NCBI GenBank assembly: GCA_028277725.1
Contig: JANQFX010000051.1
Coordinates: forward strand, 62,001-126,000
DNA length: 64,000 nt
Direction of reading: 5' to 3'
Origin: Thiohalocapsa sp.
Lineage (GTDB): Bacteria; Pseudomonadota; Gammaproteobacteria; Chromatiales; Chromatiaceae
The stretch's first letter is position 1, and every line of letters begins with the position of its first letter. This document shows, piece after piece, positions 15,718-24,176 of the stretch. The position numbers and the translations under genes are program-made. A model generated the notes under the pieces. It was not told the DNA's origin. It saw nothing but the letters and a program-made list of their open reading frames with translations, and ran no database searches.

Positions 15718-16325
15718 GTGTTCGCAGCTCGACGCAAGCCATTGAAACCCGCGCCTCATGAGTGCTGTGCTGATCGACTCCGTGGCATAGCGTTTGCCGG
15801 GAACGGTCGCCCTCTCCAAGCCCCACGCCCCGGGGTGGGTTGCAAGTCCAGTCAATGCTGAAGATTGGTCCAAAGTGGAATATGCACAATGTTTCCCAAT
15901 AGGCGGCGAGTATCGTCAGGGATGCGATACCAAGACCCCGTCGGGCGCCGACCAACCGCATTCGAGAGCGGGTCGGTAGCACGGGACTGCTGAGGTTCGA
16001 TCGTCCCTATCCCCAATAGCCCCTAGAGCGCAGGCATGCTCTGCTGTTGCTTTTATCGGTCGAATCTTGTCCTATTGGGTTGACTTTTTTTCTGCTTGCT
16101 ATACAGTCTCCAGAGTAATGGAGGTGGTCTTTCTTTGATTGTTCGCGATCGGCTCGCGCGCTCAGATTAGGATACCTAGAGGTCTGTTCTAAGGCCCGGT
16201 ATCGAGACTTCCCTCATAACTGTTGGCGCGCTCAGTGTTGCGCCCTCGACTCCCGGACCGCTTGTGAGGCCATATCCAGCGGTCCACACCCTAACCAACC
16301 CGTTCATCAACCCAGGAGGTTGTCC

Positions 16326-16724
16326 TTGGACTACAAGAGCCTTAGCGTCGAAGACTTGCAGCAACAGTTGCAGCAAATCGAGCAAAGCAAGGTCGATCTG
16401 GAAAAGGCGCTGACCCAGCGCTGGCACGAGGCGAAGTCCGAACTCGCCCAGGAGATTCGCGAGCTGATCGACTCCCGCGGCTACGACGCCGACGAAATTC
16501 TCTCCCTCGTCATGCCGCGGCGTCGGCGTGCCGGAGGCGGCGCGAAAAAGGGCAATCGCAGCTACACCCGCTATGTCGATCCGGAGAACCCGAATCAGGT
16601 CTACACCCGTGGCGTCCTGCCCGGCTGGATGAAGGAGAAGATGGCCGCGCAGGGCTACGATCCGTCCGTCAAGGAGGATCGCGAGGCGTTCAAGGCCAAC
16701 TATCTGCAGGCCGTGCAGGAGTAG
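16326..16724 (+). CDS. H-NS family nucleoid-associated protein
   Basis: H-NS-like coiled coil plus C-terminal YTRYVDPENPNQVYTRGVLPGWMKEKM; AGGAGG at 16314-16319 favours TTG 16326 over TTG 16320. Confidence 0.8.
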   Translation: MDYKSLSVEDLQQQLQQIEQSKVDLEKALTQRWHEAKSELAQEIRELIDSRGYDADEILSLVMPRRRRAGGGAKKGNRSYTRYVDPENPNQVYTRGVLPGWMKEKMAAQGYDPSVKEDREAFKANYLQAVQE

Positions 16725-16781: not shown

Positions 16782-16810
16782 AACCGGAAGACGCCGTCTT
16801 CCGGTTTTTT
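16782..16810 (+). terminator. Rho-independent terminator of the H-NS-like gene
   Basis: AACCGGAAGAC-GCC-GTCTTCCGGTT stem followed by a T-run. Confidence 0.93.
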
Positions 16811-16918: not shown

Positions 16919-17437
16919 ATGGTACCCAACAGCGACGATGAAAATGGCTCTACGGAACCGGAGGATATCGCTCGGTCCGCCGACGCGGGCAACATGGAGC
17001 AGTTGCGCAGTCTGCTGTTCGGCGGCCAGATGCGCGACTACGATCGACGCTTCAAACAAGTCGACGAACGCATCTCCATCGAGCTGGAGCGCCTGTCCAC
17101 CGAACTTCGAGGTGAACTCCTCGCCGAGCGCGAGGCCCGTCTCTCTGCACAACAGTCCGCCGCGACCACCTTGGACGAACTGCGTCTCGCCCTGCTAACG
17201 CGACTGGATGATTTGGATGCCGCGCTTACCGAGGAGTCGGCCAGCCGTGAGTCCGCCTTGGGCGAGCTCGCCGATGCCCTTCGCGACGAGTTGGAGGCCC
17301 GCGCGGCTGTCGTAGAGCGCGCCCTGACCGCGGAGCGCGAGCGGTTGCGCGGCGAAAAGGCCGACCGCGAGGAACTGGCGCAGCTCTTCGGCGACGTCTC
17401 CTCGCGCCTGGCTCGGACGCGGGATCAGGCCGAGTAG
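16919..17437 (+). CDS. Hypothetical coiled-coil protein with an LRxLLxGxQ N-terminal motif
   Basis: 172 aa, Glu/Arg/Leu-rich helical; first gene of the GTPase/OmpA/HK cluster. Confidence 0.8.
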   Translation: MVPNSDDENGSTEPEDIARSADAGNMEQLRSLLFGGQMRDYDRRFKQVDERISIELERLSTELRGELLAEREARLSAQQSAATTLDELRLALLTRLDDLDAALTEESASRESALGELADALRDELEARAAVVERALTAERERLRGEKADREELAQLFGDVSSRLARTRDQAE

Positions 17438-17476
17438 CCAGGGACCGCACGGAGGACGTCCGGTCCTGAGTAGCCG

Positions 17477-19501
17477 ATGGCAGCGGACTTCAGCCCATCC
17501 CGCCCCGCGGACGCCCAGCCGACCGACAAGGGGCCGACCCGCGAGCGCAACGGGTGTCCCTCGGAGTCGGACGAGTCGGCGTTCGAGCGCCTCAAGGGCC
17601 TATTGCTCGGCGATCAGCCCAAGCGCGTCGCCGATCTCGAGCAGCGCCTTGCGGATCCCGCCCGCCGCGCGCAGGACCTGGCCCAGGTGCTGCCGGAGGC
17701 TGTGCGTGCCTCCGGAGCGGCCGATCAGCGTCTCGCCGATGCCCTAGCGCGCCCGGTGGATGCCTGTATCCAACGCTCCGTCTCGCAGGATCCACAGCGC
17801 CTGGCTGATGCCCTGTTCCCGGTCATGGGGCCGGCCATTCGGCGCGCCATCGGCGAGTCGTTGAAAGGTTTGGTGCAGTCCATCAATCAGGCCGTGGAGC
17901 ATAGCCTGTCGCCACGCGGTTTCCGTTGGCGGCTGGAGGCGTGGCGCAGCGGCAGCACCTTCGCAGAGGTGGTGCTCAAGCATACGCTGGTATACCGAGT
18001 CGAGGCGGCGTACCTGATCCACAACGAAACCGGTCTGCTGATCGATCACGTAGTGGCCGCGACGGACACGACCCTCAAGGACGAGGACGCCGTTTCGGCG
18101 ATGCTGACCGCCATCCAGGACTTCGTGCAGGACTCCTTCAGTGCCGAGGGCGCGCCGCTGGAGTCCGTCGAGATAGGCCAACGCCTGCTCTGGCTGCTGC
18201 GCGGTCCGGCGGCGACCCTTGCCTGCGTCATCATCGGCCTGCCGCCCCATAGCCTTCGAACCGATCTCGCCGCCGTGCTGCTAGAGGTCCACGCGACCTT
18301 GGCCGCGCCGCTGGCCGGCTTTCGAGGGGACAAGTCTGCGCTGATGGCGGCCCATCCGCTGTTGGAGCAGTGCCTCGCCCTCGAGTATCGGGAGGACGCG
18401 GTCCCCGAGCGGCAGACGACCTGGTGGCCCTGGGGGCTCGCCCTGCTCCTGCTCCTGTTGCTGGCCGGGACGGGTTGGATGGCCTGGCAGCACTGGGATT
18501 GGCAGCAGCGACTCTCCCGTGCCCGGGCCGAACTCGCCGACACACCGGGCCTCGCGTTGCTGCACTGGGCGCCGGCGCGGCGCATCGATGTCGAACTCCT
18601 CGCCGATCCGCTGTCGTCGGCCGTCTCCGGGCCTGCCCGGCAGCGGGTGAGCGATGAGACGATCCGCTCGCGACTGCGCATCCGCACTCGCCCCTATGTC
18701 TCGGCCGACCCGCCCATCGTCCTGGAGCGCGCCCGCCGCCAGCTCCGCCCACCGCCCGGCGTGACCCTGGATCTGGACGGCGGCCTGCTACGCGTCTCGG
18801 GGCGCGCCCCGTCGGACTGGGTTGAGCGATTGCGCCGTTCACCGCTCCCGCCCGCCGGTGCGGAGGGGTTGGACCTCTCCGCGCTGGAGCCCGAGCTCAA
18901 GGACCAATCGGACCTCGCCGAACGGGTGCGAGCGGCGTTGCAGCCGCCCGAGGGCGTGCGCGTGACCTTGGATGGCACCAACGTCCAGCTGCGCGGCGCC
19001 GCGCCCCAGGCCTGGATCATGCGCGTCGCGGAGCGGCTGATGCCGCTGAGGGAGCTCACGGGCTGCACCGATAGAGGCCTGGTCGCAACGGAGGCCCTAC
19101 GCGCAAGGCAGTTGGTAGCGGAACTTCAGGGGCTGCGCTTGTACTTCTCCGAGGGCATCGAGCCGACGCCCGATTTTGCCGCCCGATTGCAGCGCGCGGC
19201 TGGCTGGATGCGTGAACTCGCCGACCTGCGCGACGCATTGCCCGGCCTATGGACCCGCATCGTCGTGGTCGGCCGGTCCGATGGGCTCGGCGATCCGCGC
19301 CGCAATCTGTGGCTGCGCGGAGAACGGGCCAGCTTTGCCGTTGCTCGCTGGCGTGAGCTCGGTGTCCCCGGCACTTTGCTCAGCGCCGAGGCCGCGCCGG
19401 ACTCCGAATCATCAGGGATGGCGAGTCGGAAAGACCGGCGCGTAGAGATCCGGGTCGAGTTGACGCTGCCCGCGCCGCGCGGTTGCAACCCGCCGTCCTG
19501 A
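17477..19501 (+). CDS. Membrane protein with C-terminal OmpA-like domain and large cytoplasmic N-terminal region
   Basis: Single TM (WWPWGLALLLLLLLAGTGWMAW) and OmpA-like C-terminus (VVVGRSDGLGDPRRNLWLRGERASFAVARWRELGVP...DRRVEIRVEL). Confidence 0.85.
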   Translation: MAADFSPSRPADAQPTDKGPTRERNGCPSESDESAFERLKGLLLGDQPKRVADLEQRLADPARRAQDLAQVLPEAVRASGAADQRLADALARPVDACIQRSVSQDPQRLADALFPVMGPAIRRAIGESLKGLVQSINQAVEHSLSPRGFRWRLEAWRSGSTFAEVVLKHTLVYRVEAAYLIHNETGLLIDHVVAATDTTLKDEDAVSAMLTAIQDFVQDSFSAEGAPLESVEIGQRLLWLLRGPAATLACVIIGLPPHSLRTDLAAVLLEVHATLAAPLAGFRGDKSALMAAHPLLEQCLALEYREDAVPERQTTWWPWGLALLLLLLLAGTGWMAWQHWDWQQRLSRARAELADTPGLALLHWAPARRIDVELLADPLSSAVSGPARQRVSDETIRSRLRIRTRPYVSADPPIVLERARRQLRPPPGVTLDLDGGLLRVSGRAPSDWVERLRRSPLPPAGAEGLDLSALEPELKDQSDLAERVRAALQPPEGVRVTLDGTNVQLRGAAPQAWIMRVAERLMPLRELTGCTDRGLVATEALRARQLVAELQGLRLYFSEGIEPTPDFAARLQRAAGWMRELADLRDALPGLWTRIVVVGRSDGLGDPRRNLWLRGERASFAVARWRELGVPGTLLSAEAAPDSESSGMASRKDRRVEIRVELTLPAPRGCNPPS

Positions 19502-20073
19502 GGCATGATCATGAGCCCTCAGACCCCTCCGTATTGGACGTCACTGCAACCAGAGCCCCTCGCCTCGTGGACGCCCGGAAGATTTGCATCCTCGGTGACT
19601 TCGCCGTCGGCAAGACCAGCCTGGCCCGGCGCTTCGTGCACCAGCAGTTCTCGGACAAGTATCTCACCACCGTCGGCGTCAAGGTCGATACCAAGGCGGT
19701 GGAGCTGGGCGCCGGCCGCGCCCTGAAGCTCGCCATTTGGGACATCGCCGGCACCGATACACCGACCGAGCTCCTATTGCGCTACACCCGCGGTGCCGCG
19801 GGTTTTCTGCTCGTCGCCGACGCCACGCGCGCCGAGACTCTGGACTGCTGCGCCGAACTCCGCGATGCCGTCCTAGACCGTCTCGGGCCGCTACCGCACA
19901 TCCTGCTCATCAACAAGTGCGACCTCGAGGCGCAGCGTGAGCTGACCGCCGCGGCGTTGCCATCGCCTCTCGACACCGCCCTGGCCCGCTTCGACACCAG
20001 CGCCCTGACCGGGGCCAAGGTCGAGACGGCCTTCACGGCGCTCGCACGAGCCATGCTGGAGTCGGCGCCATGA
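19483..20073 (+). CDS. Ras/Rab-like small GTPase
   Basis: G1 GDFAVGKTS, G3 WDIAGTD, G4 NKCD, G5 TSALTG; start uncertain, GTG at 19567 also plausible. Confidence 0.9.
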   Translation: MQPAVLRHDHEPSDPSVLDVTATRAPRLVDARKICILGDFAVGKTSLARRFVHQQFSDKYLTTVGVKVDTKAVELGAGRALKLAIWDIAGTDTPTELLLRYTRGAAGFLLVADATRAETLDCCAELRDAVLDRLGPLPHILLINKCDLEAQRELTAAALPSPLDTALARFDTSALTGAKVETAFTALARAMLESAP

Positions 20074-21686
20074 GCCTGCCGCCGCGCCTCGGGCGCTGGC
20101 TGCGTCGGCGCCTGGTGCAGCGTGCCCGGCCTTGCCTCATACGCGTGGATCGGGAGGGCCGATTGCTGGGCATGGACGGCGACTGCGCTCACTACGGCCT
20201 CGACGGATTGCCGGCCTGGGCCGATGTCACGCCGTACCTACCGCTGCTCGTCGGCCTGGACCTCAACGAGTCCGGTGCCGGCGATCCTTCCCGCGATGTC
20301 GAGTCCGTGGCCGGATCGATGCTCTGGCCGATGGTCGAGATTGCGGGCGGACGCCACGCCGACCTGCTACTGGAGGCCGACGGAGACGTCACGCTGATGT
20401 TGCTGACCGACGCGGACGACGCGCACGCGCGTCAGGCGTTGCCGCAGCAGCACGCCAACGAGCGGGCGCTGTTGACGAGGCGCCTGCAACGGGCCCTGGA
20501 GGAGCTGAAGGCCGCTCGATCGGAGCTCGAAGCGCGCAACCGTATGCTCGAGTCGTTGAACGACGCCAAGGGGCGGTTCATTGCCGGTCTCTCGCATGAG
20601 CTCCGGACGCCGCTGACCGCGGTCCTCGGCCATGCGGGCCTACTGCGCGATCAACTGGAGGCTGCACCGGTGCGTGGGGCCGCATCGCCGAGCATGGACG
20701 CGTCGCGGGAGAGCCTCGACGCCATCCAGTCCGGCGCGGAACACCTGCTGTCCCTGGTCGGCAATGTGCTCGATCACGCGAGCATAGAGACCGGACAACT
20801 GGTGATGAACCCGGCGCCGCTGTCGCTGGCACAACTCTGCGTCGACCTGCGCGGCCTGTTCGAGCGGGAGGCCCGGCGCCGCGGCATGACCTTTCGGGTG
20901 CGCGCTGATCGGCTTCCGCCGCGGATCGAGACGGACGCGACTCGGCTGCGACAGGTCATCATCAACCTGGTCAACAACGCCCTCAAGTACGCGGGCACGG
21001 GCGTCGTGGAGCTGAAGCTGGACTGGCGCGAGGGCCGGCTCGTCGTCGCCGTTGCGGACAGAGGACCTGGCGTGCCCCTGTCCCAGCGCGAGCGCATTCT
21101 GCGGCCCTTCGAGCGCGCCGATACCTCCAGCGGTGAGGGCAAGGCGGGCAGCGTCGGGCTCGGTCTGGCCATCAGCGCTGAGCTAGTGCGACGCCTCGGC
21201 GGCGAGATCCAGATCGACGATCATCCGGGCGGCGGCGCACTGTTTTCGTTCAGCATCGCGGCCCCCGTGTCGCAGGGACCAGTTGCACCGGCGGGGACCG
21301 CGGGGGTCGCATCGGCTACGGAGAGTGTGCACCTGTTGATGGTGGACGATGCACCCGAGATTCGGATTCTGTACACCAGCCTCCTCGGGAGGGCAGGCTT
21401 CAGTGTGCGGGCGGTCCGTGACGCGGAGGCGGCCTTGGCGGCCCTGGCCGGCAGGCGCCCCGGCATCATCATCGTCGACCTGAACCTCTGTGACGCCGAC
21501 GGAGCCGAGCTGGTCAGGCGTTTCCGAGCCCAGGGCTTCGCGGGCAAGATCCTCGGCTGGTCGGCCTCGGCCCTGCGCGCCGACCGTGAGCGCATGCTCG
21601 GCGCCGGCGCCGACCGCTACCTCGTGAAGCCGGTGCCCGCCGCGGAACTGCGCGACGCCCTGCGGGAACTGTTCGTAGCGCCTTAG
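20070..21686 (+). CDS. Soluble hybrid histidine kinase (HisKA-HATPase-REC)
   Basis: H-box FIAGLSHELRTPLTAVLGHAGLL, N-box IINLVNNALKYAGTG, G2 GLGLAIS, REC phospho-site IIIVDLNL; no TM segment evident. Confidence 0.93.
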   Translation: MSLPPRLGRWLRRRLVQRARPCLIRVDREGRLLGMDGDCAHYGLDGLPAWADVTPYLPLLVGLDLNESGAGDPSRDVESVAGSMLWPMVEIAGGRHADLLLEADGDVTLMLLTDADDAHARQALPQQHANERALLTRRLQRALEELKAARSELEARNRMLESLNDAKGRFIAGLSHELRTPLTAVLGHAGLLRDQLEAAPVRGAASPSMDASRESLDAIQSGAEHLLSLVGNVLDHASIETGQLVMNPAPLSLAQLCVDLRGLFEREARRRGMTFRVRADRLPPRIETDATRLRQVIINLVNNALKYAGTGVVELKLDWREGRLVVAVADRGPGVPLSQRERILRPFERADTSSGEGKAGSVGLGLAISAELVRRLGGEIQIDDHPGGGALFSFSIAAPVSQGPVAPAGTAGVASATESVHLLMVDDAPEIRILYTSLLGRAGFSVRAVRDAEAALAALAGRRPGIIIVDLNLCDADGAELVRRFRAQGFAGKILGWSASALRADRERMLGAGADRYLVKPVPAAELRDALRELFVAP

Positions 21687-21714
21687 AGGGTGTTTACATG
21701 GTGTAAACACCCTC
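21686..21714 (+). terminator. Strong hairpin downstream of the hybrid kinase
   Basis: GAGGGTGTTTAC-ATGGT-GTAAACACCCTC, perfect 12-bp stem, begins at the stop codon; no T-run. Confidence 0.7.
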
Positions 21715-21842: not shown

Positions 21843-22079
21843 ATGGAAACAGACGCAGTCGCGCAGCTCATCCGCACCGGCCTGCCCGGCGCCGAGGTCC
21901 AGGTCACCGGCGATGGCTCGCACTTCGAGGCTGTGGTCGTCAGCGAGGCATTCGAGGGCCTAACGCCGATCAAGAAGCAGCGCCTGGTCATGGACACGGT
22001 CAAGCCGCAGATTGCGAGCGGCGAGCTGCATGCGCTGTCCATCAAGACCTTGACCCCCGCCCAGGCGAACGCCGGCTAG
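21843..22079 (+). CDS. BolA/IbaG family protein
   Basis: GAEVQVTGDGSHFEAVVVSEAFEGLTPIKKQRLVMDTVKPQIASGELHALSIKT. Confidence 0.93.
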   Translation: METDAVAQLIRTGLPGAEVQVTGDGSHFEAVVVSEAFEGLTPIKKQRLVMDTVKPQIASGELHALSIKTLTPAQANAG

Positions 22080-22094: not shown

Positions 22095-23438
22095 TCACAT
22101 TTGCTCAAAGCAAGGGTTCGCGGCCGCGGACTGCACTTGCTCACGGCGCAGGCGGCTGGTCGCCGGATAACGGCACGTGAAACTGGTGCCGCGGTCCGGC
22201 TCACTGGCGATGCTGAGCTCCGCGCCGTGGCGGTTCATGACGTGTTTGACGATCGCGAGCCCGAGCCCCGTGCCGCCGGAAGCGCGCGAGCGCGCCTTAT
22301 CGACGCGATAGAAGCGCTCGGTGACGCGTGGGACGTGCTCCGGCGCGATGCCCGGGCCGTCGTCGGTCACCTGCAACACGGGTCCGCCGGGTTCATCGCG
22401 CCAGATGATCCCGACATGGCTGCCCGGCGGCGTGTGCTTGACGGCGTTGAAGATGAGGTTGGACATGGCGCTGCGCAGATCGGGCGGGTGCCCGAGCAGC
22501 AGCAGATCCTCGTCCAAGTCCAACTCGAAGTCATGGGCTCCGCCACTCAGGGCGCGGGCATCCGCCAGGATGACCTCGATCTCTTGAGGCACGTCCACCG
22601 GATTGCAGGCGGAGTTGCTGTCCTGCATCTCGAGGCGTGATAGCGTCAGCAGGTCCTCGATGATGGTCCGCATCCGGTTGGTCTGCTTTTCCATCAGCGT
22701 CAGCGGACGGCGGTGCTGCTCCGGGGTCAGCCCCGAGCCCGAGAGGTTCTCGACGAAACCGGCGATCACCGTCAGCGGCGTGCGCAGCTCGTGTGAAGCG
22801 TTCGCGACGAAGTCGCGCCGGATCATGTTCAAGTGGAAGATCTTGGTGATGTCGCGTCCCACCACCAAGCGCTGGCGCTTACGCTCGCCGAAGGGGGCCA
22901 CGCGGATCGACAGCATCAGGGACTGGTTGTGCTCCGGGGCCACCTCCAGCGGTCGGGCATATTCGCCGCCGTCGAGGTATTCCGCCAGCCCCTGCTGCTC
23001 GAATACGGCCGTCAGGGTCCGGCCCTCGTGGACCGGCCAGACGACACCCATCAGGGTCGCAGCGGCCGGGTTTGCCCATTCGATGCGCTTGCTCTTGTTC
23101 AGGACTACCAGGGCATCGGGAACGGAGTTCGCGGCCTCGCGAAAGCGCCGCTGGAAGCGGATCTGACGTTTCCGATCCTTCCGCGCACGCTGTTGATAGC
23201 GGCCGACGGTGCGGTAGACATCACCCCACAGTCCCATCGGGAAGGGCGGTGCCAGGCGATACCGGCGACGGATCAGGCGTGTCAGGCGGATCAGAAAGTA
23301 GAGCTGCCGCAGCAGGTAGAGGGCCAGCACCCAGAGCAGCGCGACGGCCGTCGGTACGCCGACGAACGCCAGCCCTGTTGCCAGCGCCGCGAGGCCGGTC
23401 AGCAGTGCAAGCTCGAAGCCCAGGGCCTCGATACGCAT
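22095..23438 (-). CDS. phoR: Phosphate regulon sensor histidine kinase PhoR
   Basis: PhoR layout: N-terminal TM, PAS, RRDFVANASHELRTPLTVIAGFVENL, GGTGLGLAIVKHVMNRHGAEL; downstream of phoB. Confidence 0.92.
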   Translation of the reverse strand: MRIEALGFELALLTGLAALATGLAFVGVPTAVALLWVLALYLLRQLYFLIRLTRLIRRRYRLAPPFPMGLWGDVYRTVGRYQQRARKDRKRQIRFQRRFREAANSVPDALVVLNKSKRIEWANPAAATLMGVVWPVHEGRTLTAVFEQQGLAEYLDGGEYARPLEVAPEHNQSLMLSIRVAPFGERKRQRLVVGRDITKIFHLNMIRRDFVANASHELRTPLTVIAGFVENLSGSGLTPEQHRRPLTLMEKQTNRMRTIIEDLLTLSRLEMQDSNSACNPVDVPQEIEVILADARALSGGAHDFELDLDEDLLLLGHPPDLRSAMSNLIFNAVKHTPPGSHVGIIWRDEPGGPVLQVTDDGPGIAPEHVPRVTERFYRVDKARSRASGGTGLGLAIVKHVMNRHGAELSIASEPDRGTSFTCRYPATSRLRREQVQSAAANPCFEQM

Positions 23439-23495
23439 CTCAGCTCAGCCGGCCGGCGGCGCGGCAGCTAGACTCCATGCTCCGGTTCGCCCACA

Positions 23496-24176
23496 TCATG
23501 TGCCCGAGAACCGGTAGCCGACGCCACGCACCGTCTGCAACAGGTTCTCGTGCCCTGTCTGCTCCAGCGCCTTGCGCAGGCGGCGCACATGCACATCCAC
23601 GGTGCGCTCCTCGACATAGACGCGGTCGCCCCAGACCTGATCGAGCAGCTGCGAGCGGCTGAAGGCGCGGTCGGCGTGGGTCATGAAGAAATGCAGTAGC
23701 CGGTACTCGGTGGGCGCGATGTCGATGGACTGGCCGTCGGCGCTGACCCGGTGACTGACGTTGTCGATGGTGAGTCCACCGATCTCGATCTTGTCGGCGA
23801 TGTCCCCCGGTTGCGCCCGGCGCAGCACCGCGTTGACCCGGGCGACCATTTCGCGGGGAGAGAAGGGCTTGGTGATGTAGTCATCGGCACCGGTGTCCAG
23901 GCCCTTGACCCGATCCTCCTCCTCGCCGCGCGCGGAGATCATGATAATCGGCATGGACCGCGACCGGGGGTTCTGCTTGAGCTGCTCGGCCAGTTCCAAG
24001 CCAGAGCGGCCCGGCAGCATCCAATCGAGGAGCATCAGATCCGGCTGTTCGCTGAGGAGTTTACGGGCCTCCTCTGCATGACCGGCCTCGAGCACGCGGA
24101 AGCCTCCCTCTTCGAGGGCGAAGCGGATCACCTCTCGGATATCCGGTTCGTCGTCGACGATCAATACGGTGGCCAT
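23496..24176 (-). CDS. phoB: Phosphate regulon response regulator PhoB
   Basis: VLIVDDEPDIREVIRFALE, GADDYITKPFSPREMVARVNAVLRR, EERTVDVHVRRLRKALE. Confidence 0.94.
   Translation of the reverse strand: MATVLIVDDEPDIREVIRFALEEGGFRVLEAGHAEEARKLLSEQPDLMLLDWMLPGRSGLELAEQLKQNPRSRSMPIIMISARGEEEDRVKGLDTGADDYITKPFSPREMVARVNAVLRRAQPGDIADKIEIGGLTIDNVSHRVSADGQSIDIAPTEYRLLHFFMTHADRAFSRSQLLDQVWGDRVYVEERTVDVHVRRLRKALEQTGHENLLQTVRGVGYRFSGT

Follow-up and report, generated by a model that had tools for sequence, protein, structure and literature searches.

The Thiohalocapsa sp. sequence analysed here (the window, a whole stretch of 64,000 nucleotides) carries four closely spaced genes, and it raises the question of whether an envelope protein could signal through a Ras-like small GTPase to a histidine kinase that lacks a transmembrane sensor. 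This route was put forward in the original prediction, which was made from the sequence of the locus. All four predicted plus-strand open reading frames (ORFs) were present. The features of the locus and the evidence for each are listed below in window coordinates.

16782..16810, plus strand: terminator-like hairpin with a U-run, 5′ of the cassette (−22.8 kcal/mol, z −5.1)
16919..17437, plus strand: gene 1, coiled-coil protein, 172 aa (ORF)
16994-17053, plus strand: N-terminal motif MEQLRSLLFGGQMRDYDRRF of gene 1, residues 26-45 (motif also in gene 2)
17477..19501, plus strand: gene 2, OmpA-like transmembrane protein, 674 aa (ORF)
17582..17611, plus strand: N-terminal motif FERLKGLLLG of gene 2 (hhalign against the gene 1 motif)
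17960..18388, plus strand: predicted cytosolic longin/Roadblock-like core of gene 2, residues 162-304 (AlphaFold2, Foldseek, Roadblock profile match)
18428..18496, plus strand: single transmembrane helix of gene 2, residues 318-340 (hydropathy, sequence)
19121..19468, plus strand: C-terminal OmpA-like peptidoglycan-binding region of gene 2, diverged (Pfam in relatives)
19483..20073, plus strand: gene 3, Group 1 Rup (Rab/Ras-like) small GTPase, 196 aa from TTG (Pfam Ras, G motifs)
20070..21686, plus strand: gene 4, soluble hybrid histidine kinase, 538 aa (Pfam, catalytic residues)
20448..20450, plus strand: codon of kinase Gln127, the near-invariant Gln of the output N-domain (type-A alignment)
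21686..21714, plus strand: strong hairpin at the end of the kinase gene, without a U-tract (−26.0 kcal/mol, z −6.4)

Genes 1 and 2 are separated by 39 bases (17437/17477). The other two junctions had been described as tight: the overlap of genes 3 and 4 (20073/20070) is real and consists of a 4-base ATGA, whereas the 19 bases shared by genes 2 and 3 (19501/19483) probably reflect a wrongly placed start codon. Gene 3 probably starts at GTG 19567 rather than at the upstream TTG, because the (R/K)KIC motif is where its homologues start. Both flanking hairpins were recovered, the upstream one terminator-like, as predicted, and the downstream one strong but lacking a U-tract. Directly 5′ of the terminator lies an H-NS-family gene (16320-16724, plus strand; Pfam Histone_HNS, 6e-9). 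A BolA-family gene (21849-22079, plus strand; Pfam, 1.5e-15) is located just 3′ of the cassette, as are, on the opposite strand, the genes for a PhoR-like kinase and a PhoB-like regulator (22095-24176, minus strand). A PhoB/PhoR-like pair is also found near the cassette in loci L022 and L023.

Scanning of GTDB genomes with an alignment of the GTPase yielded 80 loci, which span Gammaproteobacteria, Desulfobacterota, Acidobacteriota, Myxococcales, Planctomycetota, Cyanobacteria, Chloroflexi, and others. Upstream genes were counted in the 62 loci with at least 4.5 kb of upstream flank, and downstream genes in the 72 loci with at least 1 kb. An OmpA-like gene was present upstream of the GTPase gene in 50 of the 62 loci, and OmpA-like and coiled-coil genes were both present in 46; the OmpA-like gene was absent nearby in 12, eight of which were from Beggiatoa-type Thiotrichales. 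An output protein was recognised by profile in 68 of the 72 loci, and two of the remaining four encode HD-GYP proteins according to Pfam. Presence was also scored in 184 gammaproteobacterial genomes, with a cut-off of >80 bits for the GTPase and with a marginal OmpA-domain match in one genome (G118) left out. The GTPase was found in 19 of these genomes and the cytosolic domain of the OmpA-like protein in 18; 18 genomes had both, with the two genes adjacent in 17. An output N-domain of type A or type B (see below) was present in 16 of the 18 genomes having both and in none of the other 166.

Gene content, gene order, co-occurrence, and motif conservation were thus read directly from the loci. 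The original prediction had named a lack of co-conservation as the result that would count against it; in this neighbourhood survey the GTPase, the OmpA protein, and the output N-domain were co-conserved. As the gene order recurs in several phyla, the grouping is more than chance, and we concluded that the four ORFs are one real cassette. Variants of the arrangement were also seen. In loci L044 and L046, genes for an OmpR-type regulator, the GTPase, a hybrid kinase, and an Hpt protein are consecutive, with no OmpA-like or coiled-coil gene nearby. The Beggiatoa-type loci L028, L029, L034, L054, L059, L069, and L072 have an extra ORF of 148-173 aa with an output N-domain just 5′ of the GTPase gene.

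Gene 3 encodes a Ras-like GTPase (Pfam Ras, 1.4e-29) in which the motifs G1 to G5 are kept (GDFAVGKTS, TTVGV, WDIAGT, NKCD, and TSA). The position of Ras Gln61 is occupied by Thr in the window protein; of 84 GTPases, 83 have a residue other than Gln there and one has Gln. The best matches among solved structures were Rab23, Rab1, and Rab35. The protein had been likened to MglA; its Ras-like nature held, but the comparison was inexact, since the protein is not an MglA: it belongs to the Rup/Rab clade, keeps the Asp of DxxG (WD in the listed G3 motifs), and has no insertion between G1 and G2, the spacing being 14 in 83 of 83 measured GTPases.

Gene neighbourhoods of this kind have been published. 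Group 1 Rup proteins, prokaryotic GTPases placed close to eukaryotic Rab, Ran, Ras, and Rho, were described next to a coiled-coil protein, a DUF-TM-OmpA protein, and a signalling output, mainly a GGDEF/EAL protein or a histidine kinase; in the N-terminal part of this output, one Gln is invariant (Wuichet & Søgaard-Andersen 2014, PMC4316618). In that study, the GTPase lacked the G3 Gln and the Gln of the output was proposed to act in trans; Rup GTPases were held not to be linked to MglB homologues, the domain of the OmpA protein was left as a DUF, and at publication the Rup GTPases had neither a characterised member nor a known regulator. Judged by these neighbourhood criteria, the window locus is a Group 1 Rup cassette: a Ras-type GTPase without G3 Gln (WDIAGT) is adjoined by a coiled-coil protein (gene 1 and its homologues, the coiled coil being judged from sequence), by a protein with a DUF, a transmembrane helix, and an OmpA region seen in relatives and undetected by Pfam in the window copy, and by an output in which Gln127 represents the invariant N-terminal-region Gln. 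The earlier statement that no characterised system has this exact composition was accordingly wrong in bioinformatic terms, whereas in experimental terms it agrees with PMC4316618. What is new here is the longin/Roadblock prediction for the cytosolic domain of the OmpA-like protein, the composition itself being already published. The PAS-like plug-in domain of the outputs, the motif shared by genes 1 and 2, and the Hpt and OmpR-type additions in many relatives are also added.

Even at E = 1, the window protein gave no Pfam match to the OmpA domain predicted for gene 2. Pfam OmpA was above the cut-off in 6 of 10 relatives, with weaker matches in the other 4. Because relatives of the same protein pass this cut-off, the domain was considered present but diverged in the window copy. 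The strongly conserved cytosolic part of the gene 2 homologues reads WR.EA.R.G..F.EVVL.HTL.YRVE...LIH.ETGLL ... D.DAVSAMLTAIQDFV.DSF. For this domain there was no significant match in Pfam, NCBIfam, or PHROGs, and a sequence-only search against solved structures returned nothing usable. An AlphaFold2 model built with 49 sequences had a mean pLDDT of 82 and a pTM of 0.54, parts of the core being near pLDDT 70, and the modelled core has the order helix-b-b-helix-b-b-b-helix. Comparison of the core with the PDB by Foldseek returned longin/Roadblock proteins throughout the top 50, among which there was no PAS or GAF match. The matches comprised Mon1-Ccz1 with Ypt7 (E 3.7e-5), TRAPP, AP sigma subunits, Rag/Ragulator, CPLANE, and MglB, and the Foldseek probability was 1.00 for Mon1-Ccz1, TRAPP, CPLANE, Ragulator, and MglB. 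Longin and Roadblock are related GTPase-binding domains, and longin and PAS have a general fold in common (PMC3521125).

The domain was also aligned by hhalign with Roadblock proteins fetched from other genomes. The match was colinear with a score of 17.8, at an HH probability of only 5.6%. In the controls, none of 200 column shuffles exceeded 10.9, a score of 17.8 or more was reached by 1 of 100 block shuffles, and the remaining cassette profiles stayed at or below 6.0. Gene 2 stayed below the cut-off of Pfam Roadblock/LC7 (PF03259), with no match in the window protein and one member at 0.033, and no Pfam Roadblock protein was found in the source genome, a 4.35-Mb draft that is 83.7% complete. 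The sequence match to Roadblock by itself is suggestive; taken together with the predicted fold, it indicates that the cytosolic domain of gene 2 is likely longin/Roadblock-like. At their N-termini, the coiled-coil and OmpA-like proteins have the motif IRxLLFG (IR.LLFG) in common (hhalign score 23.3 versus a shuffled maximum of 10.6). One L073 protein matches both the coiled-coil and the OmpA-like profiles.

The product of gene 4 contains HisKA, HATPase_c, and receiver domains (Pfam); H176, N302, D330, D470, and K520 are all present and no transmembrane segment is evident, which confirmed the predicted soluble hybrid kinase without a transmembrane sensor. The model of residues 1-118 (mean pLDDT 92) shows a PAS-like fold with a long helix behind it. 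The structural matches were PAS domains of phytochromes, FlrB, and others, and the Foldseek top 50 contained no longin match. Type-A N-domains are carried by kinases, class III cyclases, HD-GYP proteins, and SpoIIE proteins, and type-B N-domains by GGDEF, GGDEF-EAL, and HD-GYP proteins and kinases. The two profiles gave a weak colinear match (E 8.9e-5, HH probability 60%), and a common origin is likely. A search of the source genome found a single copy of the type-A N-domain. We concluded that the output N-domain is a PAS-like plug-in dedicated to the cassette and placed on interchangeable enzymes. Two regions (G094:C88:11198-12043 and G173:C238:13480-14328) have a type-A and a type-B N-domain in succession within ~0.9 kb, apparently in one protein.

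In the model, Gln127 of the kinase is placed where the long helix begins behind the PAS core, and 74 of 75 type-A N-domains have Gln here. The apparent counterpart in type-B outputs is the QKAR position, at which only 9 of 15 carry Gln; Arg was read there by eye in the GGDEF outputs of the Desulfovibrio-type loci L033, L056, L064, L087, L088, and L097. Candidate phosphorelay partners were found in relatives: an OmpR-type regulator is encoded just upstream in 15 loci, and an Hpt protein just downstream in 4 loci and upstream in others. Neither gene adjoins the window cassette, where the nearby PhoB/PhoR genes are on the other strand. The cassette kinases of L070 and L073 (627-628 aa) match the Hpt profile too, which suggests that an Hpt domain is fused to them. 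When the surroundings of the loci were screened for further recurrent genes, most of those that emerged were antisense-looking ORFs of the cassette, and no shared process was seen.

Longin and Roadblock proteins regulate the nucleotide state of Rab and MglA. In the model that we consider most likely, with about an even chance of being right, the state of the envelope would act through the predicted longin-like domain of gene 2 on the nucleotide state of the GTPase, and through this on the PAS domain of the kinase. The OmpA-like protein would reside in the inner membrane, its C-terminal domain gripping the cell wall and its longin/Roadblock-like N-domain facing the cytoplasm. The envelope state, sensed by the periplasmic part, would alter the longin/Roadblock-like domain, which may regulate the Rup GTPase as a GEF, a GAP, or both. 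Through the common N-terminal helix motif, the coiled-coil protein may pair with the OmpA-like protein as its scaffold or assembly partner. The GTP-bound GTPase would then bind the PAS-like N-domain of the output, here the hybrid histidine kinase, and raise or lower its activity; where relatives have the full set, phosphate would pass from the receiver to Hpt and on to the OmpR-type regulator. Both folds are predicted, and we infer every physical interaction, the direction of signalling, and the choice between GEF and GAP. The predicted route from the envelope protein via the GTPase to the soluble kinase gained support at the level of genes and folds, because co-conservation is strict, the fold modelled for gene 2 is that of a GTPase platform, and the PAS-like domain is dedicated to the cassette.

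The conserved Gln of the outputs allows a reading that we regard as fairly unlikely, namely that the output N-domain is itself the GAP. Its Gln would supply the catalytic glutamine missing from the GTPase, the kinase would both read and end the signal, and the OmpA-like protein would only anchor. This is the in-trans proposal of 2014 (PMC4316618), and it agrees with the near-absence of Gln from the Gln61 position and the near-invariance of Gln127 in type A. However, the incomplete conservation in type B speaks against it, the Arg of the six GGDEF outputs weakening a universal catalytic role; moreover, a Gln placed where the post-PAS helix begins could simply transmit a signal, and the longin-like fold would be left unexplained. 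The signal could also flow in reverse, the kinase being the sensor and the GTPase and OmpA-like protein the output acting on the envelope. Such an order would resemble that of the actinobacterial conservons, which consist of a kinase, a Roadblock protein, a DUF protein, and a small GTPase posited as the output (PMC4316618), and a PAS-like N-domain, a common sensory fold, would suit a sensor kinase. We hold this quite unlikely, as output enzymes with quite different products are swapped beside a constant OmpA-like protein and GTPase, a pattern that suits one shared input feeding exchangeable outputs, and as several loci add Hpt and an OmpR-type regulator.

It is distinctly improbable that the cassette controls polarity or motility in the manner of MglA, the OmpA-like protein serving to mark a site in the cell. 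Both small GTPases are paired with a Roadblock-related fold, but the cassette GTPase differs from MglA in the features given above, and the recurrence screen around the loci, in which family names were not looked up, contained no obvious motility gene family. Separate roles for four chance neighbours would be compatible with our finding no sigma-70-like promoter for a transcript shared by the four genes; this explanation is extremely improbable, being refuted by the co-conservation counts as far as comparative genomics can do so.

Returning to the preferred route from the envelope to the kinase, we put the chance at about even that bacteria already have a Rab-clade GTPase working with a regulator of longin/Roadblock fold, which here is fused to a wall-binding protein that spans the membrane. 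If this is true, the pairing that underlies eukaryotic Rab activation exists in bacterial envelope signalling, with effectors swappable via a dedicated PAS-like domain. The cassette would then provide a Rab-like switch that is small and open to testing; simple assays exist for its outputs (c-di-GMP enzymes, cyclases, and kinases). Zhang et al. (PMC3521125) derived eukaryotic longins from MglB-type partners of MglA-clade GTPases, and a longin/Roadblock domain with a bacterial Rab-clade GTPase would add a data point to their argument. In the collection of papers searched, none mentioned longin, Roadblock, bacteria, OmpA, and GTPase together. FtsZ-like/OmpA/GTPase systems (PMC2875224) were set aside; the FtsZ-like and VWA proteins that are central there are absent from the four-gene cluster.

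Among known systems, the Group 1 Rup cassette (PMC4316618) is alike in its four components, its GTPase without G3 Gln, and its output with a conserved Gln; the present account differs in the longin/Roadblock-like fold predicted for the former DUF and in the wider range of outputs. The actinobacterial conservon (CvnA-D) is likewise a four-gene cassette with a histidine kinase and a small GTPase. It differs in having a Group 2 MglA, a free Roadblock protein, and a membrane-bound kinase, and in lacking an OmpA part, whereas the window GTPase is of Rup type and the 83.7% complete genome yielded no Pfam Roadblock protein. MglA-MglB of Myxococcus and Thermus resembles the cassette in combining a small GTPase with a Roadblock-related partner, but the cassette GTPase is of another clade, and its partner is membrane-spanning and wall-binding, unlike MglB, a free Roadblock dimer. 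Eukaryotic Rab proteins with longin-fold GEFs (Mon1-Ccz1, TRAPP, and Fuzzy-Inturned) are similar in that the cassette GTPase is nearest to Rab23, Rab1, and Rab35 and the predicted fold of its partner is nearest to Mon1-Ccz1. In contrast to these, the cassette is without vesicle traffic, no lipid anchor was seen, and its output is two-component or cyclic-nucleotide signalling.
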